From a virus: a DNA stretch of 34,479 nucleotides. The notes under the pieces were generated by a model, which was not told the origin of the DNA, searched no databases, and saw nothing but the letters and a program-made list of their open reading frames with translations. Below, one piece after another: positions 2,812-33,203 of this stretch; positions within the stretch are counted from its first letter, which is position 1; each line of letters begins with the position of its first letter. The translations under genes and the position numbers were made by a program. The DNA lies in IMG/VR virus record IMGVR_UViG_3300050014_000410, positions 1 to 34,479 of that record; one strand, written 5' to 3'.

Positions 2812-3203
2812 TGGTCAAGACCACCGAGACGCCCTACGCCGAGGCGAAGAGCAACAAGCTCTACCTGCCGCCGATCGACGAGGTCACCGGCGCCGTCATC
2901 CGGGACTACTATGATGGAGTGCTCCACTTCCCTGCGGGTTACACAGGGACACAGAGGGTCAAATGGGTCGAGCAGGAAGATGATTTCTGGAAGCCATGGT
3001 CAGCCACTCCGAAGGAATTGGTATGGCGCCCGAGAAGGGCAAAGGCAAGGGAGTTGACACCACCCCCGTCCGTTACCAGTGGAGAGCCTAGAGAGAGAGA
3101 TAGAGGAGTTTCCTATTATAGTAATAGTAAACCTAATAGTCTAATAGGAAACTCTTCCGAGAAAGAAATTTCTCTTCGAAATGAAACGAAGGGGTTGTCC
3201 TGA
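2811..3203 (+). CDS. Hypothetical protein with AT-rich 3' segment
   Basis: A 130-residue protein, taken from the ATG at 2811 that overlaps the upstream TGA. Residues 1-85 are GC-rich and look like a compact domain (NKLYLPPIDEVTGAVIRDYY, then a Trp-rich stretch WVEQEDDFWKPWS). From about residue 90 the code becomes AT-rich and low in complexity (SYYSNSKPNS), and the DNA there carries inverted repeats. The tail may be read-through into a former regulatory region upstream of the ribbon-helix-helix gene at 3203. The function is unknown. Confidence 0.6.
   Translation: MVKTTETPYAEAKSNKLYLPPIDEVTGAVIRDYYDGVLHFPAGYTGTQRVKWVEQEDDFWKPWSATPKELVWRPRRAKARELTPPPSVTSGEPRERDRGVSYYSNSKPNSLIGNSSEKEISLRNETKGLS
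3106..3154. repeat. 13-bp perfect inverted repeat inside the 3' end of a gene
   Basis: GAGTTTCCTATTA at 3106-3118 is matched by its exact reverse complement TAATAGGAAACTC at 3142-3154, with a 23-base AT-rich spacer. It lies about 50 bases before the ATG of a putative ribbon-helix-helix regulator at 3203, so it could be its operator or an RNA hairpin that limits read-through. Confidence 0.7.
3159..3174 (+). other. Small hairpin with GAAA loop
   Basis: GAGAAA-GAAA-TTTCTC forms a 6-bp stem closed by a GNRA-type tetraloop, directly after the longer inverted repeat and about 30 bases before the next start codon. It may act in the RNA, for example as an attenuator or to set ribosome access. Confidence 0.4.
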
Positions 3204-16646: not shown

Positions 16647-17549
16647 ATGGTATACGACCAATCGACCTACGACAGGTTCACGGAATTCATGGACGTGCAA
16701 ATGGTGGACCCGCTGCGTGCGGTCACCATGACCAGGAAACTGATCGAGAAGATCACCCCGGTCGCACCTGGCACCTACAGCGTGAGGTACAACAAGATCA
16801 GAGATATGGGTCTGGCGTCCGTCAGCAAGGGCACCCCGCAGGCCGGCATGGCCCGCGACAACGTGCAGGTCGACCCTACCGTTCTCGGCCTGAACATCTT
16901 CTACAAAGGCTACGTCGCACCCAAATCCGAGTGCGACGCCTTCGCCGCCGGAACGAACACTACTCTCGAAACAACCGACATGATCTCGGCGGCCCAGCGT
17001 GTGGCCGAGAGGGAGGACGAGGTCATGATCAACGGCTGGTCCCCGAACGGCTCGACCTACGAAGCGCCAGGCATGTACCAGCAAGCAGTGGCCAACGGAG
17101 CGATCTCCGGGTCGTCCTTCGGCACCTTCGGCGGCGCCAAGGACTCCGTCAAGGTCGGAGCTGCGGCAGTCACCACGGCCAAGGTCAAGGGCTGCAACTA
17201 CAACCTGATCGTGAACCAGGCGGAATACTGGAAACTGCTGGGCAGCATCTCCACCCTGGGCGTGCCGGAACTCCCGATCGTCAAGGAGATCCTGAACTCC
17301 GTCCAGAAGGGCGCCGCCCCCGGTGACGTGTACTGGTCGTACTACATCCCCGCCGGCTACGGCCTCATGGCCCCGGCCGACCCGACCGGCCTGCACCTGG
17401 ACCTGGTGGTCGCGCAGGACTACAAGAACACCGCCGGATTCGACAGCACCATGGGCGAGCTGTCCCCGATCTACGGGACCACGTTCTGCATCGAAGCATT
17501 GCGGTTCAAGCACGTGGAAAGCGTCATCGCGTTGACCGGACTGGCCTAA
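16647..17549 (+). CDS. Major capsid protein, HK97 fold
   Basis: A 300-residue protein at the site of the major capsid gene. The layout fits the encapsulin/HK97 fold: an N-terminal helix region (YDRFTEFMDVQMVDPLRAVT), the E-loop-like strands (PVAPGTYSVRYNKIRDMGLA), a spine helix (TTDMISAAQRVAEREDEVMI), P- and A-domain strands with GTFGGAKDSVKVGAAAVTTA and VYWSYYIPAGYGLMAPADPT, and a final strand GTTFCIEALRFKHVESVIAL as in encapsulin-like capsids. No N-terminal delta domain is obvious, since the separate scaffold gene is upstream. A C-rich/G-rich hairpin and poly-T run follow the stop. Confidence 0.85.
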   Translation: MVYDQSTYDRFTEFMDVQMVDPLRAVTMTRKLIEKITPVAPGTYSVRYNKIRDMGLASVSKGTPQAGMARDNVQVDPTVLGLNIFYKGYVAPKSECDAFAAGTNTTLETTDMISAAQRVAEREDEVMINGWSPNGSTYEAPGMYQQAVANGAISGSSFGTFGGAKDSVKVGAAAVTTAKVKGCNYNLIVNQAEYWKLLGSISTLGVPELPIVKEILNSVQKGAAPGDVYWSYYIPAGYGLMAPADPTGLHLDLVVAQDYKNTAGFDSTMGELSPIYGTTFCIEALRFKHVESVIALTGLA

Positions 17550-17608: not shown

Positions 17609-18097
17609 ATGACCGCCGACCCCTCGACCCTTCCATACAATTCCCCGTACTCAGTGAGCGATACGCCGGGACCCAACGTGATCAGTACGGCACAGTTCAA
17701 CTATTTGGCAGGCAAGGCGGACCAGAGACTGAGCAAGGAGGCACCGCCCGGCATCGCCCAGGAGGATTACGACAACCTCCAGTTACTGCTCATACTCAAC
17801 ATCATCGAGAGCAACAAAGGCACCAATGTGCTCACGGCGGAGCGCCTTGGCGACTATTCCTATTCAAAGCCGACCGGGACGAACCAGTACCTGGACCAGT
17901 ACGAGCGCGAGCTCGACGTCATACGCCGCAACCTATCGGAGGCGGGCTTTGGCACCCAGGGCCGGTCGGACACCTACATGCCGAGCATGGAGATGGACCA
18001 GTCCCAGATCCCGGTGCTCAACACCGACGATCAGTCGGTCGCCGAACAACTGGCGCTGGATCAGCGCAGGCAGAACAACGGGGGATTCCCGTACTAA
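17609..18097 (+). CDS. Head-tail connector-like protein
   Basis: A 162-residue protein right after the capsid gene, where gp6-like adaptor proteins lie. A helical region (ISTAQFNYLAGKADQRLSKE, DYDNLQLLLILNIIESNKG) matches the helical bundle of such adaptors. The C-terminus is low in complexity (DQSQIPVLNTDDQSVAEQLA and beyond) and may insert into the portal. The assignment is by position and helix pattern, without a diagnostic motif. Confidence 0.55.
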   Translation: MTADPSTLPYNSPYSVSDTPGPNVISTAQFNYLAGKADQRLSKEAPPGIAQEDYDNLQLLLILNIIESNKGTNVLTAERLGDYSYSKPTGTNQYLDQYERELDVIRRNLSEAGFGTQGRSDTYMPSMEMDQSQIPVLNTDDQSVAEQLALDQRRQNNGGFPY

Positions 18098-18109
18098 GGA
18101 AGTGACAAA

Positions 18110-18574
18110 ATGGTAGACATGCAAACAATTCTGGAAGGTCTGGCCGGGACGGCCGCCATAATCCTGGCGGTACTGGCCTTTGGCCTGGACTATGCCCGCC
18201 GGAAATACGGCGCATGGGGAGACAAGATCGTAGCAGGGATCAAGATGCTCCGTGACGGCTCGGTAATGCTGGCGCAGAAGTTCCCGACCGACGAAAAGCT
18301 GGTGAAGTGGTCAAACGACCTATCAGCATCGTACGATGATGTGAACGCGGCCTGGGCAAGCAACGACTGGCTGAACTGGCTGAACCTCATAAAAGCATCG
18401 AGCGACTTCCACGCGACCTATGCGGATTTGCCCGCCGTGATAATGGACCTGGTGAACCGGGTCTGCGCGTTGCCGGCAACCCCCGTTCCGGTCCCGGTCG
18501 TGGTCGCTCCGGAGGTATTATCCTCACCGGGACAGCCGCCGGCCATGGCCTCGACCGCATCCGTGACCCCGTAG
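18110..18574 (+). CDS. Membrane protein with N-terminal transmembrane helix (holin-like?)
   Basis: A 154-residue protein. Residues about 7-27 (ILEGLAGTAAIILAVLAFGL) form one transmembrane helix, followed by a charged helix with DYARRKYGAWGDKIVAGIKM, helical segments, and a Pro/Val-rich C-terminal 35 residues. The plan of one early helix and a soluble helical tail is like LL-H-type holins. It sits between connector genes, next to another membrane protein, and the pair might be the lysis proteins. AAGGAAGTGA precedes the ATG. Confidence 0.5.
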   Translation: MVDMQTILEGLAGTAAIILAVLAFGLDYARRKYGAWGDKIVAGIKMLRDGSVMLAQKFPTDEKLVKWSNDLSASYDDVNAAWASNDWLNWLNLIKASSDFHATYADLPAVIMDLVNRVCALPATPVPVPVVVAPEVLSSPGQPPAMASTASVTP

Positions 18575-19994: not shown

Positions 19995-20696
19995 ATGGTA
20001 ACACAAGCGAAATTCGGACACGGAGCGGGGCTAACGCGGGCAGGTTACGCCATCTCTGAGATATTGACCCTTACACTGCCCGTCAGGAAGACCGCCGAGA
20101 TCAAGGTGACCAACTTTGACTCTCCGAACAATGCCGAGGAATACATTCCAGGGTTGAAAGAAGGGGACAAGCTCACGGTCAACTGCAACTTCCGGCCAGG
20201 GGACACAAACGGGCAGATGGGGCTTATAGCCGACCAGAACACCGGCGCCATACAGACGTACATCTTCACCGCCCCGCCGGCGATCGGGATCTCAGTACAG
20301 TTCAGCGGGTTCGTCACTGAGGCAGAGCCCGATTTCCCCAACGACAAGGCGGCGACCTTCAAGGCCGTCATCAAGGTCACCGGAGATGTGGTCTACAACG
20401 CCAACGCATCGAGCAACCTGACGGCGCTGGTCGTGTCGAACACAACCCTCGTCCCGGCATTCGTCGGAACGGCCTATGAGTACAACGGCACCGTGACGCC
20501 GGGGACTACATCCATTACCGTCACCCCGACCAACGCCGCGGCGGCGACCATCCTGGTGAACGGCTCCTTAGTGACCAGCGGCAATCCGTCCGGAGCGATC
20601 CTGACCCCGGTCGGATTGACAAATGTGACCATCATCAGCCAGGACACCGGAAAGTCCCCGCTCGTGACCGTGCTGCACCTTGGAAGGGCCTCCTAA
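19995..20696 (+). CDS. Major tail (tube) protein with C-terminal beta-sandwich
   Basis: A 233-residue protein. The first 135 residues resemble siphovirus tail tube proteins: ISEILTLTLPVRKTAEIKVT, SPNNAEEYIPGLKEGDKLTV, NFRPGDTNGQMGLIADQNTG and FSGFVTEAEPDFPNDKAATF. The last 90 residues (LVPAFVGTAYEYNGTVTPGT and on) look like a cadherin-like/Ig-like sandwich that would decorate the tail surface. No sheath gene is seen near it, which supports a non-contractile tail. GAGGTAGAG precedes the ATG. Confidence 0.85.
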   Translation: MVTQAKFGHGAGLTRAGYAISEILTLTLPVRKTAEIKVTNFDSPNNAEEYIPGLKEGDKLTVNCNFRPGDTNGQMGLIADQNTGAIQTYIFTAPPAIGISVQFSGFVTEAEPDFPNDKAATFKAVIKVTGDVVYNANASSNLTALVVSNTTLVPAFVGTAYEYNGTVTPGTTSITVTPTNAAAATILVNGSLVTSGNPSGAILTPVGLTNVTIISQDTGKSPLVTVLHLGRAS

Positions 20697-20710: not shown

Positions 20711-21052
20711 ATGATCGCAAAAGTACCCAAACGTGTCGAGATGGACCTGGATAAGCCCAGGTCCTTCTATTATGACATGAGGACGGCCGCGGCGTTCGAG
20801 GACAAGATGGGCAAGGTCCCGGTCAAGCTCGACTGGAACTCCCCCAAGGAGCTCTGCACCATGGTCCACCTGATCCTGCAACGCACTGACGCCAGCCTGA
20901 CGTACGATCAGGTGCTGGAGATGGTGCACGGCCAGAACCTGGACGAAGTGCGGACGGCCGTGGCCGACTGTATGGGGGTCGAGCTGGTCAAGCAAAAGAA
21001 ATCAGCGGACGGGGCCGAGGTCATCAAACCCGAGGAACCGGCAAAAAACTAG
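20711..21052 (+). CDS. Tail assembly chaperone, gpG-like
   Basis: A 113-residue protein between tail tube and tape measure, the place of lambda G. I prefer the ATG at 20711 because GGGTGA lies 5 bases upstream; a GTG three codons earlier is possible. The sequence includes MDLDKPRSFYYDMRTAAAFE, TDASLTYDQVLEMVHGQNLD and a charged tail. Its last codons are GCA-AAA-AAC-TAG, a canonical -1 slippery heptamer at the stop. The normal product would bind the tape measure protein during tail assembly. Confidence 0.85.
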   Translation: MIAKVPKRVEMDLDKPRSFYYDMRTAAAFEDKMGKVPVKLDWNSPKELCTMVHLILQRTDASLTYDQVLEMVHGQNLDEVRTAVADCMGVELVKQKKSADGAEVIKPEEPAKN

Positions 21053-21384
21053 AACCGACCGACTGGCTCGCGTTGTGGGCCTTCGGTCGTAATGACCTGA
21101 AACTTAACACCTACTGGGAAGACGAAAAACTGGGAAAGATGGACGAGTTCTGGACCATGCACCCGCTACAATTCAACACTTTGAGCGAAAGACATTACCG
21201 CAGCATCGCCGAGGGGCGCGCATTCCTGGCGAACGCTCTCGGATGCCAGAAGGAAGACAAGTCCCAGTACACGTCGGACGACTTCATGCCGAAGCCGGAA
21301 GAGGTCGAGGATGACGGATGGGGTGCGCTGTGCGGACAGATGAAGGGTCTGGCCGCACGCTGGGGCGCATTGAAGGAGACCTGA
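20711..21384 (+). CDS. Tail assembly chaperone gpGT-like, made by -1 frameshift
   Basis: A -1 slip at 21043-21049 would join gpG to the frame that continues at CTA (21049) as LEPTDWLALWAFGRNDLKLN and ends with a TGA at 21382-21384. The fusion is about 224 residues from the ATG at 20711, with 111 residues in the second frame. The second frame has no ATG near its start (only a TTG at 21073) and has viral-like codon use, as expected for a T domain. In lambda, GT and G are made at a fixed ratio and load the tape measure. Fusion is inferred from the site and layout. Confidence 0.8.
21043..21049 (+). promoter_or_regulatory. Programmed -1 ribosomal frameshift site A AAA AAC
   Basis: The heptamer fits X XXY YYZ in the G frame and is directly followed by the TAG stop. 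Six bases later CGACCGA (21056-21062) can pair with TCGGTCG (21083-21089), a 7-bp stem at the spacing usual for a stimulatory structure. Confidence 0.8.
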
Positions 21385-21385
21385 C

Positions 21386-23266
21386 ATGGATACCCAAGGC
21401 ATCAACACGGTGGTGACGGTCGACGTCAGCCAGGCCGTCGAGGGATTCGGCCAGGCCGGCGAGGCCGCCTCCACATACTCCGAGGATGTGCAAACTGCCT
21501 CAGAAGAGGTGAGCACATCCAATGACACCATGGTCGAGTCAACTGGCGGAGTGGTGCAATCGCATGACGACCTCACGACGGCAAGCGACGGATCGACCGC
21601 CTCGCTGAAGGGAGGCGTCCTCGGCGCATCCGAGGCGGCGGCAGGCGCTGTCGGCCTGGCGTTCTCGATGGACGAGCTGAACAAGTCGCAGTTGCAAGTT
21701 GACAAGGCGCAGAAGGCGGTTGTCACCACGAACATCGCCCTCCAGGCCGCCCAGGACAACTATAACAAGGCGGTCGCGCAGTACGGCCCGAACTCGGACC
21801 AGGCCAAGACCGCCCTGGAAAAACTGACCGCCGCGCAGATGGGCGCGAAGGATGCTTCGGAGAAACTGGACATCGCCCAAGGTAACCAGTCGCAGACAGA
21901 AATGATGATGGCGGTCAGCGTCATTCCCGAACTGATCACCATGATAACCGGAATAGGGGCGGCATGGGAGGTTCTCGGCCCTATCCTGGGGATTGGTTCT
22001 GCCGCCGAGGACGTGGGCGCGGTGTCGACCGATGCGTTGGCGACCTCGTTCTGGGCGCTCAATGCCTCGATGATAATCATAATCATTGTCATAGCGGCGA
22101 TCGCCATCGCGGCATACTTGATAATCACCAATTGGGGCACCGTCTCGGCCTTCTTCGGCGGCCTGTGGAACGCGGTCGTCGGATTCTTCCAATGGGCGTG
22201 GGGGATTATCTCGCCAATATTAACCATCATTGGACAGGCCGCGATAGATGCTTTCGGGATCATCCAGACCGTAATTACCACCGTGCTCGGGATAGTCGGC
22301 GGCCTGATAACATTCTATTTCGACGCTTGGCAATCGGTCATAACGACGGTGATGAACATCATCTCTGGGATCATCAGCGCCGTTTGGGGGACGATACAGA
22401 CCATCTTCCAGGACGCGGTGGATATAATCCTTCTCACCGTTAAGGTCGGAATGGGCCTGATCCAGAACTACATAATTGACCCCATTAATTATGTATGGAG
22501 CGTCATAACATCGGTGTGGGGATTCATCGAGGCGGTATTCCAGGACGCTGTGGACGCCGTCATGCTTACTGTTAATATCGGAATGGGCCTGATCCGCGAT
22601 TATATCATCGGTCCTATCAACGATGTATGGACCGGGATAACGGTCGTGTGGGGATTCATCGAGGCGGTATTCCAGGACGCTGTGGACGCCGTCATGCTTA
22701 CTGTTAATATCGGAATGGGCCTCATACACGATTACATAATCAACCCGATCCAGACAGTTTATAACGTCGTGTCCGGCATCCTGAACTCCCTGCTCAGCGT
22801 ATTCCGGTCAATTTTCGGCAGCATCGAGAGCACGGTGAGCTCGGTCGTCACCGCGGTCATTGGCTTGTTCAAGCCGCTGACGGACGCGGCGGGGCATGTC
22901 GGCGACGCCGTCGGAGCCATCAGCCACGGCGACATCATAGGCGCAGCACAGGACGTAGGACACATCTTCGGCCTCGCCGAGGGCGGCATGGTCAAGGCCA
23001 CGCCGGGCGGCACGATCGTCCGGCTCGGCGAGGGCGGCCAGGACGAGTACGTCATCAACCAGACCCAGATGAACGGGCTGTTCCAGGGAGCGTCGCCGCC
23101 GGCGTCGGTCTCGTCGCCGACCCGTGTCAACAGCTCCTCGAGCTCGAGCAGCAGCTCCACGGTCTCGATCGGGCAGATCATCATCCAGGGCGGCAACGGG
23201 CAATCGATGGCGAAACAATTCACGGACGCGCTAAAGCAGCAGAACATCAGGGTCAGCACAGGGTGA
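21386..23266 (+). CDS. Tape measure protein
   Basis: A 626-residue protein directly after the GT region. The N-terminal 190 residues are helical and polar (QAVEGFGQAGEAASTYSEDV and so on). Residues about 225-300 are very hydrophobic (MIIIIIVIAAIAIAAYLI). Residues about 330-450 hold three 44-residue repeats around FQDAVDAVMLTVNIGMGLI. The C-terminal part is Gly/Ser-rich with a conserved EGGMVKATPGGTIVRLGEGG block and a Ser run, as in many tape measure proteins. By the usual 0.15 nm per residue the tail would be near 90-95 nm. Confidence 0.9.
   Translation: MDTQGINTVVTVDVSQAVEGFGQAGEAASTYSEDVQTASEEVSTSNDTMVESTGGVVQSHDDLTTASDGSTASLKGGVLGASEAAAGAVGLAFSMDELNKSQLQVDKAQKAVVTTNIALQAAQDNYNKAVAQYGPNSDQAKTALEKLTAAQMGAKDASEKLDIAQGNQSQTEMMMAVSVIPELITMITGIGAAWEVLGPILGIGSAAEDVGAVSTDALATSFWALNASMIIIIIVIAAIAIAAYLIITNWGTVSAFFGGLWNAVVGFFQWAWGIISPILTIIGQAAIDAFGIIQTVITTVLGIVGGLITFYFDAWQSVITTVMNIISGIISAVWGTIQTIFQDAVDIILLTVKVGMGLIQNYIIDPINYVWSVITSVWGFIEAVFQDAVDAVMLTVNIGMGLIRDYIIGPINDVWTGITVVWGFIEAVFQDAVDAVMLTVNIGMGLIHDYIINPIQTVYNVVSGILNSLLSVFRSIFGSIESTVSSVVTAVIGLFKPLTDAAGHVGDAVGAISHGDIIGAAQDVGHIFGLAEGGMVKATPGGTIVRLGEGGQDEYVINQTQMNGLFQGASPPASVSSPTRVNSSSSSSSSSTVSIGQIIIQGGNGQSMAKQFTDALKQQNIRVSTG
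22382..22733 (+). repeat. 132-bp tandem repeats in the tape measure gene
   Basis: Bases 22514-22590 and 22646-22722 are identical over 77 bases at a 132-bp (44-codon) period. A diverged third copy begins at 22382. Identity at silent positions shows that the last duplication is recent. Confidence 0.9.
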
Positions 23267-25047: not shown

Positions 25048-25440
25048 ATGAGCGGAATAACAACCTACGAGGAAAACAGGCTACTGGACATCATGCTGGG
25101 GAACGGGACGCCGGCCACGGTCTACGTCGGATTATGCACCGGCGTGGCCGCGAACGGGACGATCACCGGAGAGCCGTCCGGAAACAATTATGCCAGGATC
25201 GCGCTGACAAACAATGCGACCAATTTCCCGGCCGCGTCCGCGGGGAGCAAAAGCAATGGCACGCAGATCAACTTCAACGTGCCGAGCGGGTCCTGGGGCA
25301 CGTTGACCACGTTCTTCGTGAGTGATTCGTCCAGCGGCAACACCAACACCAAGGAGTATTGCACGATCACGACCATCACGCCTGGTAACGGAGACACGGT
25401 CAAGATCGTCATCGGCGGGACGGCGTTCACTCTGGGCTGA
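25048..25440 (+). CDS. Small phage tail-fibre-type protein
   Basis: A 130-residue protein with a strong GGAGGATC ribosome site. The sequence LGNGTPATVYVGLCTGVAAN, EPSGNNYARIALTNNATNFP, KSNGTQINFNVPSGSWGTLT and the ending GGTAFTLG is characteristic of a small beta-sandwich protein found in many tailed viruses, annotated as tail fibre protein. It probably forms a trimer or adaptor at the tail tip. It is placed between the spike and the hub gene. Confidence 0.75.
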   Translation: MSGITTYEENRLLDIMLGNGTPATVYVGLCTGVAANGTITGEPSGNNYARIALTNNATNFPAASAGSKSNGTQINFNVPSGSWGTLTTFFVSDSSSGNTNTKEYCTITTITPGNGDTVKIVIGGTAFTLG

Positions 25441-25444
25441 TCCG

Positions 25445-28400
25445 ATGGCCTACGTCCTGCAGTCCAGCCCGGTAGTGGTCTCCAAGTCGTTTCCGTACTC
25501 GGAACTCGGGCACCTGCAGGTATACACCATCACCCAGACCTTCAATCTTGATGGCTCCTGGAGCGTGGCGGATAATCGCGGGCGGAAGGTGCCCGTCCCC
25601 ATGCCATCGATCGCCGGAGTCACGGGTATAGCGGCGACCATCTATCAGGACACAGGCGCGCAACTGGTCAAGCAGGTCTATTCCAAGGGCAGTTATTCGC
25701 TCACACTCATCCACGATTTCTCGGCAAGGACCGACGGCGGGGCGAAGATCTCCGTGATCGGCAATCTCCCGTCGGCCACAACCCTGCAGTTCCAGTTCGG
25801 GGCGTCAGTCTCCTTGGCGCAGATCGCCGCCAGGGTCGGTGACGGATACGTTGGAATGGATGGCAACTTCTACGGTCTGGGCTTCGACTGGTCCGACCTG
25901 ACACCGGCGCAGATCGCATCGCTGAAACCGACCTGCGTCAATGGCCTCTTGTCGTTGACGGTCCCGGCTCAGTTCGAGATCGATCCGGCCACGGTCGGGA
26001 CCGGCACAGGTACCGCCTGGGCGATGCCATCGAACCAATGCGTGCCTGTATGGATAGCCGCAACGAACCTGTGGTGGATGATTTACTGCGACGGAACCAA
26101 CGTGGTCTATCAATCGTGCGCCACGCTCACCGGGACCTGGGCGACCAAGGCGACGGTCCTCGCCCTCGCCACCATCAATTATGCTGTCTGTTCTGACGGG
26201 ACGTACATTCACATCGCCTATCAGACCGGGGCGACGATCCATTATATCCAATGCACCCCGACGAGCGGCGGGTCCATAGGTGCCGGGACGGACCGGACCA
26301 TTGTCGCATCGGGAGCTGTCGCTTGCTATCCGACGGTCTGCGTGACCACCGACTCATACGTCGCTATCGGTTATGCGATCACCTCCAATTATCCGAGGGT
26401 CATCAAGAACTCCAACCTGAACAGTAATTCCGCATGGGTCAACGCCAGCGGGTTCCCGGCGACCATCACCTCAACGGCCATGTATGCTCCGGTCGTAGCT
26501 CCCGCGCCGAGCGGAGCGGTCAACGTAGTTTATGCGACCTCATCGGTCATGTATTTCAGGACCGTATCATCGACGGGGACGGTGGGCGGTCAGGAAACGG
26601 CTTCATTATCGACGGTCGCAAACATAGTCGCCGGTGCGAACGCCATCGGCCTGTTCGTGGATTCGAGCGGCAAGACCACCATCGTCTATTGCGACACCAG
26701 CTACAACGTCAAGACACGCAATAGGTCGTCCGGCGGTACATGGGACGGCTCCGAGGTCACTCATCAGACCATGTCGGCAATATGTACCATTGGTATACAG
26801 CAGGACACGGCGACCGGGAACATTTACCTCTTTTGGGACGATATAGCGAACTCCTACGTCCGTTATGATTGGTTCAATGGAACGTCGTGGGCGGGAGCGG
26901 CGACCCTCTCGAACGAATCCAGCGACGGGGGGCTAAATGCGTTCGCCATCGGTGGCCCGCTTACCTCCCAAAACGGACAGGTCGCGGTCTGCTACATGAC
27001 CAAGGCCACATCGCCGTACAACATCAAGGTCGCCGGGCTCGCCCTCACCACGACCTGGGCCATTACGGGCACGGTCGCCATCTCCGCATCGGTCAGCGCG
27101 ACCGTCCTGGACAATGCGAACTGGATAGTTGCCGGCACGGTTGCTATCGCTGCCAGCGTCTCCGCGACCGTTGTCGACACTCACAATTACGTGCTGACAC
27201 CGGTCATCGCCGTCGCGGCGTCCGTTTCCGCGACCGTCCTGGACAATGCTAACTGGATAGTTGCCGGCACGGTTGCTATCGCTGCCAGCGTCTCCGCGAC
27301 GGTCATCGATACCGCCCCCGGTGCGGTGCAGCACCCGACCCTCGACCTGCACGGCGGCATCAAGCTCCTGAACCACCTCGAGGAGGACGCGCTCTTCCTG
27401 ATCACCAATTCTGGACCTGTTCCCGGTACGGTCCATCTCTCGGCCGGGGCTAATATCCACTTCGACAATCTCCCCGGCGCCGGCTTCGATCCGAACGCGA
27501 ACATCATACTGATCATCGACGGGACGTCCGGCGAGCCGTGTACGATCGACAGCGCGTCGGCGACACCGGCGAACGCCTGGACCATGCCGGGGAGTGCGGC
27601 GAGCGTAACGGCGACGTACTGCACGTTCACGAACTGCCAGTACACGCTGCTCCCGACCACCTGGTCCCTCGGGCGTTGCACGTTCAACTGGATCGCCTCG
27701 GTCGCTCCGGTCGCGTCGTTCACCGCCGACCTGACAACGCTGCAGAGCCCCAACCAGACCACGTTCACTGACACGAGCTCAGGAGCGCCGACTGTTTTCT
27801 TGTGGAACTTCGGAGACGGCAGGATCTCAACCGATCAGAACCCGGTCCATCAATGGAACCGGCCGGGCACGTTCTATCCCACATTAAAGGTCACCAACGG
27901 GTCCGGAAGTAGCACCTCTGCGCCGCTTATGGTCACAGTCACAAACCCCCAGGTCAACATGGCCATGACCATCGGCGGAACGGACATCACGCCGCAGTAC
28001 CAGACCAACTCGCTGAGCATAACCGGGGCCATCGGCATGCGCAAGACTGGATCCTTGACACTGCACAACAAGAATACGTTCCGCCCGGCTACCGGCGCCC
28101 CGGTGATCATCACCGACTCGAACACCGCCAATAGGATCTTCGGCGGCCTGATATGGGACTACTCTGAATACAATCAGGAGCTCAACACGGACACGTGGTT
28201 CGACGTGAACATGACGTCGTTCGACGGTCTTGCCGATCGACACCAGGTCAATGAGATCTACAATACGCCGCAGACCGCCGACCTCATCATCAAGGACCTG
28301 GTCGCCAAATACTTGGTCGCGGAGGGCGTGACGACGGTCAACGTCGAGGTCGGCCCGGTGATCGATTCAGCGTTCTGGGCGATGGTGAGCTGCGCGAGCT

Positions 28401-29374
28401 GCTTCGACGATCTGTGCAACGGCAACGGGTTCAGCTGGTACATCGATGACTACAAGGACCTGCACTACTACAACACCGCCTCGCTCACCTGTCCAGTATC
28501 TTTGACGGATACGAGCAACAACTACCGCGCGCTGACGGTCAAGCGGAGCATGGCCGACTACATCAACGCGGAGTGGATCCAGGGCGCGGACGCGGTCAGC
28601 GACCCCCATCCGGAGACCTTCATCGGCAACGGACAGATTACAACGTTCACGCTGTCGAAGGCCTGCGTGGCCGTGCCGACGGTCACGCTCAATGGAGTAT
28701 CGCAGACGGTCGGCATATCCCAGGTGGATGTCGGCAAACAGTGGTACTGGTCTTCGGGCAGTCAGGCCATCACCCAGGACCAGTCGGGGACCCCGATCGG
28801 CGCGAGCGATGTGCTGGTGATCAACTACTCCTTCGCCTATCCCAACCTGGAGTACGCCGACAACCCGGCCGAGATCTCCAATCGGGCCGCCGTCGAGGGC
28901 ACGACAGGACGCTACGAGGCGTTCAAGTCGATCTCGTCGTTGATCAGTCCGACCCAGAACCTGGCCTACGGCGCGGCCGACATAGCCAAGTTCGGGCGGG
29001 TGTCGGAGGTTGTCACCTACGAGAGCGACAACCCTACCATCCAGGCCGGGCAGGTGCAGAGCGCGGAGATCATCAAGAAGGGATTGTCCGGAAGCTACCT
29101 GATCACCTCGGTCACGGTCGCCGAGGTCGACAAGGCGATACTGAGGCGGACGGTGACAGCCCAGGGCGGGCAATTCCTGAGTCAATGGGTGAACTACTTC
29201 AGATCGTTGGCAAGCAAGAGCTCGAAGCCGGTCTCAATCGGCTCCGGAAGTGTCCTGCTCCTGGCAGTGCAGGGCAAGGAGACACTCGTGTTCAGCGACA
29301 GCATCACGGTGGCGCAGGGACCGAACGTGAACGCGCTGGGGACCGGAGTCCTCGGATTCTTTTCGATAGGGTGA
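25445..29374 (+). CDS. Large tail hub/tip protein with 22-residue repeats and PKD domain
   Basis: A 1309-residue protein from the ATG at 25445, 5 bases after the upstream stop; the open frame reaches farther back to 25322 only as a shadow. By region: residues 1-190, beta-rich distal-tail-like part; about 195-535, repeated strands with Trp/Asp turns that suggest a sialidase-like propeller; about 538-625, four tandem 22-residue repeats (NWIVAGTVAIAASVSATV type); 626-755, a beta module; about 756-834, a PKD domain (SSGAPTVFLWNFGDGRISTD); 836-1309, a hub domain with GDTP-like tail features such as GSLTLHNKNTFRPATGAPVI and IIKDLVAKYLVAEGV. It likely links the tube to receptor-binding parts. Confidence 0.75.
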   Translation: MAYVLQSSPVVVSKSFPYSELGHLQVYTITQTFNLDGSWSVADNRGRKVPVPMPSIAGVTGIAATIYQDTGAQLVKQVYSKGSYSLTLIHDFSARTDGGAKISVIGNLPSATTLQFQFGASVSLAQIAARVGDGYVGMDGNFYGLGFDWSDLTPAQIASLKPTCVNGLLSLTVPAQFEIDPATVGTGTGTAWAMPSNQCVPVWIAATNLWWMIYCDGTNVVYQSCATLTGTWATKATVLALATINYAVCSDGTYIHIAYQTGATIHYIQCTPTSGGSIGAGTDRTIVASGAVACYPTVCVTTDSYVAIGYAITSNYPRVIKNSNLNSNSAWVNASGFPATITSTAMYAPVVAPAPSGAVNVVYATSSVMYFRTVSSTGTVGGQETASLSTVANIVAGANAIGLFVDSSGKTTIVYCDTSYNVKTRNRSSGGTWDGSEVTHQTMSAICTIGIQQDTATGNIYLFWDDIANSYVRYDWFNGTSWAGAATLSNESSDGGLNAFAIGGPLTSQNGQVAVCYMTKATSPYNIKVAGLALTTTWAITGTVAISASVSATVLDNANWIVAGTVAIAASVSATVVDTHNYVLTPVIAVAASVSATVLDNANWIVAGTVAIAASVSATVIDTAPGAVQHPTLDLHGGIKLLNHLEEDALFLITNSGPVPGTVHLSAGANIHFDNLPGAGFDPNANIILIIDGTSGEPCTIDSASATPANAWTMPGSAASVTATYCTFTNCQYTLLPTTWSLGRCTFNWIASVAPVASFTADLTTLQSPNQTTFTDTSSGAPTVFLWNFGDGRISTDQNPVHQWNRPGTFYPTLKVTNGSGSSTSAPLMVTVTNPQVNMAMTIGGTDITPQYQTNSLSITGAIGMRKTGSLTLHNKNTFRPATGAPVIITDSNTANRIFGGLIWDYSEYNQELNTDTWFDVNMTSFDGLADRHQVNEIYNTPQTADLIIKDLVAKYLVAEGVTTVNVEVGPVIDSAFWAMVSCASCFDDLCNGNGFSWYIDDYKDLHYYNTASLTCPVSLTDTSNNYRALTVKRSMADYINAEWIQGADAVSDPHPETFIGNGQITTFTLSKACVAVPTVTLNGVSQTVGISQVDVGKQWYWSSGSQAITQDQSGTPIGASDVLVINYSFAYPNLEYADNPAEISNRAAVEGTTGRYEAFKSISSLISPTQNLAYGAADIAKFGRVSEVVTYESDNPTIQAGQVQSAEIIKKGLSGSYLITSVTVAEVDKAILRRTVTAQGGQFLSQWVNYFRSLASKSSKPVSIGSGSVLLLAVQGKETLVFSDSITVAQGPNVNALGTGVLGFFSIG
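27101..27300 (+). repeat. 132-bp near-identical repeat in the tail hub gene
   Basis: Bases 27119-27168 and 27251-27300 are identical over 50 bases and are preceded by 18 further bases with one difference. The period is 132 bp, that is two 22-residue units. The pattern shows recent duplication of a two-unit block. Confidence 0.85.
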
Positions 29375-32687: not shown

Positions 32688-33203
32688 ATGGTCAGAGAGA
32701 TCCGTCTTTCTGCAGGTAGAAAAACTTTGGTTGATGACTTTTTGTTCGACCGACTTTCAGTATTTTTATGGCAATCTAAAGGGAGTGGAACATCTAGAGA
32801 TGCAGTATATGCGGCCAGAAGTGACCGATCCACCGATAAACATAATAAAACTGTTTTGATGCACCGAGAAATTTGGGAGATGGTCAATGGGGCAATCCCT
32901 GTCGGGATGGAAATCGATCACATAAATAGAGATAAACTAGACAATCGCTTAGAAAATCTAAGAGTCTGCACACGTAGCCAGAACACAATGAATCGAATAA
33001 AACTAGAATCAAAATCATCTAGATTCAAGGGCGTTGTGTTTAGACCTTCTCGTGGGAAATATGAGGCCAAAATAAGAAAAAATGGAGAGGAAATATACCT
33101 CGGGATATTCAAGTCTGAAATAGACGCAGCCCAAGCCTATGATGCAAAGGCAGTAGAGTTGTTTGGTGAATTTGCCAAACTCAATTTTGAGGAGGCGGCC
33201 TAG
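32688..33203 (+). CDS. HNH endonuclease with AP2 domain, second copy
   Basis: A 171-residue protein. The HNH motif is MHRE (H59), then MEIDHINRDKLDNRLENLRV with D77-H78 and the final Asn at 90. The AP2 part at about 110-166 reads SSRFKGVVFRPSRGKYEAKI and then IDAAQAYDAKAVELFGEFAK. It shares domain order and the C-terminal AYDAKA-x-ELFGE block with the protein at 2138, but the rest differs, so they are distant paralogues or separate arrivals. The gene is strongly AT-rich inside GC-rich DNA. It begins just after the TAG of the upstream gene and ends just before the next ATG, without disturbing the operon. It is a likely free-standing homing endonuclease. Confidence 0.9.
   Translation: MVREIRLSAGRKTLVDDFLFDRLSVFLWQSKGSGTSRDAVYAARSDRSTDKHNKTVLMHREIWEMVNGAIPVGMEIDHINRDKLDNRLENLRVCTRSQNTMNRIKLESKSSRFKGVVFRPSRGKYEAKIRKNGEEIYLGIFKSEIDAAQAYDAKAVELFGEFAKLNFEEAA

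Follow-up and report, generated by a model that had tools for sequence, protein, structure and literature searches.

The 34,479-nt stretch of viral DNA analysed here (IMG/VR record IMGVR_UViG_3300050014_000410, positions 1 to 34,479; hereafter the window) very probably contains a site at which a long-tailed virus, with a methanogenic archaeon as its probable host, uses programmed -1 ribosomal frameshifting. At this site both the tail assembly chaperone G and a G-T fusion protein would be produced. A frameshift of the G/GT type was judged very probable because of the conserved gene order, the family matches of related proteins, the -1 arrangement with slippery heptamers across at least 100 loci, and a covarying hairpin downstream of the heptamer.

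Gene order and the slippery heptamer

The genes for the tail tube protein, G, T (in the -1 frame) and the tape measure protein followed one another in the order that is typical of the G/GT chaperone pair of long-tailed viruses (Table 1). The tail tube protein had 30% identity to the major tail protein of a Syntrophomonadaceae phage. The T open reading frame (ORF) was open from position 20890 to the TGA at 21382-21384, so that it overlapped the G ORF from 20890 to 21052, and 1 nt separated its end at 21384 from the tape measure ATG at 21386. A first-pass annotation of this DNA had described a T frame that lacked an ATG near its start and ended just before the tape measure gene; both points were confirmed, since upstream of the conserved T motif the window had no ATG, GTG or TTG in this frame and the gap was a single nucleotide.

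Table 1. Features of the G/GT region of the window.
Feature	Position	Strand	Details
Gene for the major tail (tube) protein, 5' of G	19995..20696	+	phrog_158 (6e-10)
Gene G, tail assembly chaperone	20711..21052	+	113 aa from ATG 20711; located between the genes for tail tube and tape measure
Start alternatives and stop of gene G		+	GTG 20702, or ATG 20711 preceded by GGGTGA; stop TAG 21050-21052
Slippery heptamer A AAA AAC	21043-21049	+	G frame, touching TAG 21050-21052
T part, -1 frame	21049..21384	+	111 residues past the slip; predicted G-T fusion of 224 aa
Predicted stimulatory hairpin	21056..21089	+	outer stem 21056-21062/21083-21089; inner stem 21065-21071/21075-21081; loop GUU
Gene for the tape measure protein, immediately after T	21386..23266	+	phrog_58, tail length tape measure protein (1e-27)

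The last codons of G read GCA AAA AAC TAG, the correct register for a -1 shift, and the heptamer at 21043-21049 fitted the X XXY YYZ pattern in the zero frame, at a place where the two ORFs overlap. The earlier claims of an A AAA AAC directly before the G stop codon and of a 6-base spacer between heptamer and stem (21050-21055) were therefore borne out. The sequence AAAAAAC was unremarkable when taken alone, with two occurrences in the window against 1.7 expected. In-frame X XXY YYZ heptamers with Y as A or T numbered 11 in the 9310 codon positions of the window, and the heptamer at 21043-21049 was the only one that lay within 30 codons of a stop. The site is notable for its combination of register, place and hairpin. 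The sequence GAGGA was also seen at 21032-21036, six bases 5' of the heptamer, and could be an internal Shine-Dalgarno-like stimulator.

The hairpin downstream of the heptamer

The first-pass annotation had proposed a 7-bp stem between 21056-21062 and 21083-21089. RNA folding (60 nt) reproduced this stem and added an inner one, giving a structure of 7 + 7 bp that was stronger than claimed, with a free energy of -22.7 kcal/mol and a z-score of about -3.7. An equally good fold was obtained for only 0.08% of the 40-nt stretches of the window. The hairpin began at 21056, 6 nt past the heptamer and inside the 5-9 nt range for stimulatory structures. A search of the window against Rfam gave no match.

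Conservation of the frameshift arrangement in related loci

Related loci were sought in IMG/VR. With T as a single protein the scan found nothing, and with G as a single protein it found two loci only; an alignment of T proteins was needed, followed by a DNA pattern for the T motif. This pattern (W..LWA.[GA]R.DL) took no account of G or of heptamers, and it matched at least 120 IMG/VR stretches. After duplicates and chance matches had been removed, at least 100 loci remained, the window included, in which a G-like ORF overlapped or abutted T and T was in the -1 frame.

An in-frame X XXY YYZ heptamer (Y = A or T) was present in 61 of the 100 loci listed, compared with 3 and 3 in the other two registers and 5.6 expected from codon shuffling. 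The types among the loci listed were CCCAAAC (25), CCCTTTA (14), AAAAAAC (9, including the window), GGGAAAC (5), CCCTTTG (4) and others that were few. In addition to the window, AAAAAAC was in frame at eight of these loci (L007, L024, L035, L061, L068, L069, L106 and L136), and heptamers of the A AAC CCT type were found at further loci. No heptamer with Y as A or T was present in 39 of the 100 loci listed, and in 21 of the 100 no X XXY YYZ of any kind was recognisable. As a control, the identical scan of phage lambda returned its known G GGA AAG. At first pass, disappearance of the heptamer from close relatives had been named as a result that would speak against frameshifting; instead, heptamers were kept and their letters varied.

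Some loci departed from the common pattern. Two in-frame heptamers, CCCTTTA and AAAAAAG, lay 9 nt apart at both L055 and L063, and these may be double slip sites. At L032, near reverse-strand position 3109, the T motif was accompanied by a G-like ORF that overlapped it only in a +1 relation, which may represent an exception, an error or a different type of shift.

Upstream of the motif, the T frame was without ATG, GTG or TTG in 80 of the 100 loci listed and without ATG in 95 of the 100, which argues against separate initiation. Separate translation of T, either by re-initiation after the TAG or from the TTG at 21073, and with no fusion product, was regarded as very unlikely. This TTG is the first start codon in the T frame and lies only 20 nt past the G stop, as such a mechanism would favour; however, inspection of the bases before it revealed no Shine-Dalgarno-like sequence, and it sits inside the conserved DWLALW motif, so that initiation there would remove the conserved DW. 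Separate initiation would also leave the conservation of in-frame heptamers without a reason.

The same survey bears on slippage of RNA polymerase, by which a changed length of the A-run in the transcript would place G and T in one frame. The six-A homopolymer of the window would suit this process, but most relatives have CCCAAAC, CCCTTTA or GGGAAAC at this position, in which the runs are too short. Furthermore, as would be expected if ribosomes slip, the heptamers keep a constant register relative to the codons of G and are followed by RNA structure. Transcript slippage was accordingly given only a slight chance.

The third alternative, that the G/T split results from a sequencing or assembly error or marks a pseudogene and that the real gene lies in one frame, would be in keeping with a metagenomic contig and an error-prone A-run, but it is exceedingly improbable. 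The identical -1 split was present in at least 100 contigs with differing heptamers, and also in isolate records such as those of lambda and HCTV-2. At the level of the family, this interpretation was refuted by the comparative data.

Covariation of the hairpin

Programmed ribosomal frameshifting at this site was also examined through the RNA downstream of the heptamer in the related loci. Folding of the 55 nt past the heptamer gave a mean z-score of -1.45, compared with -0.18 for controls of the same loci (n = 60), and the difference from nearby control stretches was significant (Wilcoxon p = 1.3e-6; 60 loci among those listed), although the z-scores were weak at many individual loci. The same hairpin register, with compensatory changes, was common to the window, L007, L009, L034 and L035. 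In loci with a heptamer 18-27 nt before the W codon of the motif, the pairing peak fell at exactly the register of the window; some loci with a heptamer this near were without that register.

Covariation was assessed with 27 distinct sequences that were picked by heptamer position only, blind to pairing. This set gives the unbiased count, and its signal was weaker than that of a first set of 12 sequences that had partly been picked for pairing. Paired cells amounted to 63.0% in the true register compared with 34-50% when the register was slid, and the covariation score was 0.192 compared with 0.140 ± 0.012 in shuffled and at most 0.131 in slid alignments. There were 29 double-change cells against 14.6 in shuffles, although this single measure was not unique to the true register since it reached 33 at a slide of +2. 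The covariation was thus above shuffles, and above slid controls on most measures. Double changes in the lower stem included the A-U pair of the window, which is C-G in L007, and the U-A pair of L009 against G-C.

Some of the inner stem and of the 3' arm coincides with codons for the T protein motif (TGG GCN NNN GGN CGN); because of this overlap, protein constraint contributes to the conservation of the hairpin. The informative covariation is that of the variable linker side and the lower stem. We tentatively suggest, as an idea that is somewhat more likely to fail than to hold, that tailed viruses of one widespread family, a methanogen virus among them, have preserved a defined, covarying hairpin in a constant register across the codons for DWLxLWAxGR in T. 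Were this the case, a single RNA element would promote slippage for G/GT whether the ribosome is bacterial or archaeal, and the heptamer would meanwhile change freely (CCCAAAC, CCCTTTA, AAAAAAC, GGGAAAC).

Family membership of G and T

In PHROG comparisons the G protein matched phrog_2115, annotated as a tail protein (4e-7). Pfam matches of G sequences were to PF11836 (Phage_TAC_11; 19 of 35) and PF12363 (Phage_TAC_12; 3), and the window G by itself had no Pfam match. An AlphaFold model of G had a pLDDT of 86.5; its best row in VIA-align was Bacillus YqbN (3klu), with a Z of only 4.7, and Foldseek returned no significant match to the model.

Among the members of the T alignment, five of the seven matched PF06223 (Phage_tail_T, the lambda gpT family), with a best value of 6.9e-11, and five matched PF09550 (Phage_TAC_6). 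The window T was 34% identical to the T of L007 (tblastn, E = 4e-9). Its proposed membership of the family is drawn from these relatives, since the window T alone gave no significant Pfam or PHROG match. Comparison by hhalign of the G and T profiles with the single sequences of lambda gpG and gpT was not significant.

Proposed mechanism

In the proposed scheme most ribosomes would terminate at the TAG at 21050 and release the chaperone G. When AAA and AAC are occupied by the tRNAs of the P and A sites, respectively, the ribosome would be hindered by the hairpin 6 nt downstream, and a minority of ribosomes would re-pair one base back (AAA AAA) and continue through T to 21384. The predicted product is a 224-aa G-T fusion whose N-terminus is common with G. 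We infer that slippage actually takes place here and that the two products function in this virus as they do in lambda. The tape measure protein would then be coated by G, and the T portion of the fusion would recruit the protein of the tail tube in a fixed, low proportion. The assembly roles of lambda G and G-T are summarised in PMC5009743.

Host of the virus

The host is probably a methanogen, a conclusion drawn because the portal protein and a PKD-domain protein matched only records of methanogen viruses. Among 50,697 phage records, the sole match of the portal was vir524 (Methanomicrobiales; 6e-53). The 1350-aa PKD-domain protein (25322-29374), which is likely to be a tail or adhesion protein, had vir515 (Methanosarcinales; 1e-38) as its sole phage-record match. 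These matches support the first-pass view of a probable archaeal virus, but do not prove it: TerL was matched better by many bacterial phages, with vir524 among its matches, and the matches of the tail tube protein were to the Syntrophomonadaceae phage and other bacterial phages. For a small HTH protein the nearest relatives were a haloarchaeal family, below the cut-off. Inspection of Shine-Dalgarno and TATA sequences did not discriminate the host domain. When the T-motif pattern was run against genome contigs, there were four matches, none of which was a T gene; as these contigs gave no true relative, no provirus and no named host can be given. No match was obtained for the portal against plasmids, and a DNA-level search against phage records returned a spurious 59-base match only.

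T-like ORFs that had not been annotated were seen in both methanogen-virus records. In vir524 (L006), such an ORF at 22190-22420 directly followed a G-like gene (21823-22332) and was shifted by +1 (or -2) relative to it, near the sequence GTT CCC CCA TGA, which may point to a +1 or -2 frameshift and not to a -1 shift. In vir515 (L143), a T-like ORF at 17749-18252 (GLSPQEFWKLTIDEL...) was in frame -1 relative to gene 32 and closely preceded the gene for the tape measure protein; the G end at this locus was without a canonical heptamer.

Other features of the window were also recorded. Two genes resembling HNH + AP2 homing endonucleases (2138-2662 and 32688-33203) lay one on each flank of the structural region, and the second contained an in-frame A AAA AAT at 33077. 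The candidate major capsid gene (16647-17549) matched the Pfam encapsulin family Linocin_M18 (1.2e-6), and a tblastn search of it against phage records gave no match.

Comparison with known systems

Phage lambda is the type case of the G/GT frameshift. The window resembled lambda in the order tail tube, G, T and tape measure, in having T in the -1 frame and an X XXY YYZ heptamer near the G stop, and in that relatives of the window T matched the Pfam family named for lambda gpT. In contrast to lambda, where G GGA AAG lies 15 nt before the stop, the A AAA AAC of the window touches the stop and is followed by a stable hairpin, and direct comparison with lambda gpG and gpT alone was not significant.

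Predicted -1 sites of the g and t genes have been published for the archaeal viruses HVTV-1, HCTV-1, HCTV-2 and HCTV-5 (PMC5009743, PMC8211752). Among these, the haloarchaeal virus HCTV-2 has an annotated joined G-T gene, and its G was found, on direct checking, to end GCA AAA AAC TGA. This archaeal tailed virus shares with the window an identical GCA AAA AAC followed by a stop, a -1 shift, and the tape measure gene next. It differs in that its T, as judged by eye, is without the DWLxLWAxGRxDL motif, in its weaker downstream hairpin (-12.8 kcal/mol compared with -22.7 for the window; 60 nt), and in its haloarchaeal host, compared with a probable methanogen for the window virus.

The chaperone pair of Hardycor1 has a predicted frameshift at G GGA AAT (PMC7911831), and viruses of the HF1 group seem to use a +1 shift (PMC7230728). 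These are archaeal viruses in which, as in the window, a chaperone pair with a predicted frameshift precedes the tape measure gene; they differ in the heptamer or in the +1 direction and in their haloarchaeal hosts. The statement at first pass that signals of such completeness have rarely been documented in archaea was fair, but the signal is not new, given the predictions for HVTV-1, HCTV-1/2/5 and Hardycor1 and the identical heptamer at the stop in HCTV-2.

Experimental demonstration of a -1 frameshift in archaea comes from fucA1 of Saccharolobus solfataricus, with A AAA AAT and a putative stem-loop (PMC8211752). Its heptamer is nearly identical to that of the window and is also accompanied by a putative stem-loop, although fucA1 encodes a cellular enzyme and not a viral chaperone. 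To our knowledge, direct experiments on archaeal -1 frameshifting are essentially confined to this one cellular gene, and the viral cases are predictions in halophiles. In bacteria, dnaX of Escherichia coli combines a poly-A heptamer, A AAA AAG, with a downstream hairpin; it is a different gene from that in the window, and has a Shine-Dalgarno-like element at a longer spacing.

The catalogue of at least 100 loci allows motif-based annotation of T genes missed by gene callers, as in vir515 and vir524. The compact and complete signal of the window, with relatives that carry varied heptamers, would be a convenient reporter for comparing the function of different heptamers and hairpins on archaeal ribosomes, and would also address the ratio of G to G-T. 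Since the G gene of HCTV-2 ends GCA AAA AAC TGA, neither the heptamer nor archaeal G/GT frameshifting is new; what the window adds to these known systems is a probable methanogen setting and a strong, covarying hairpin.
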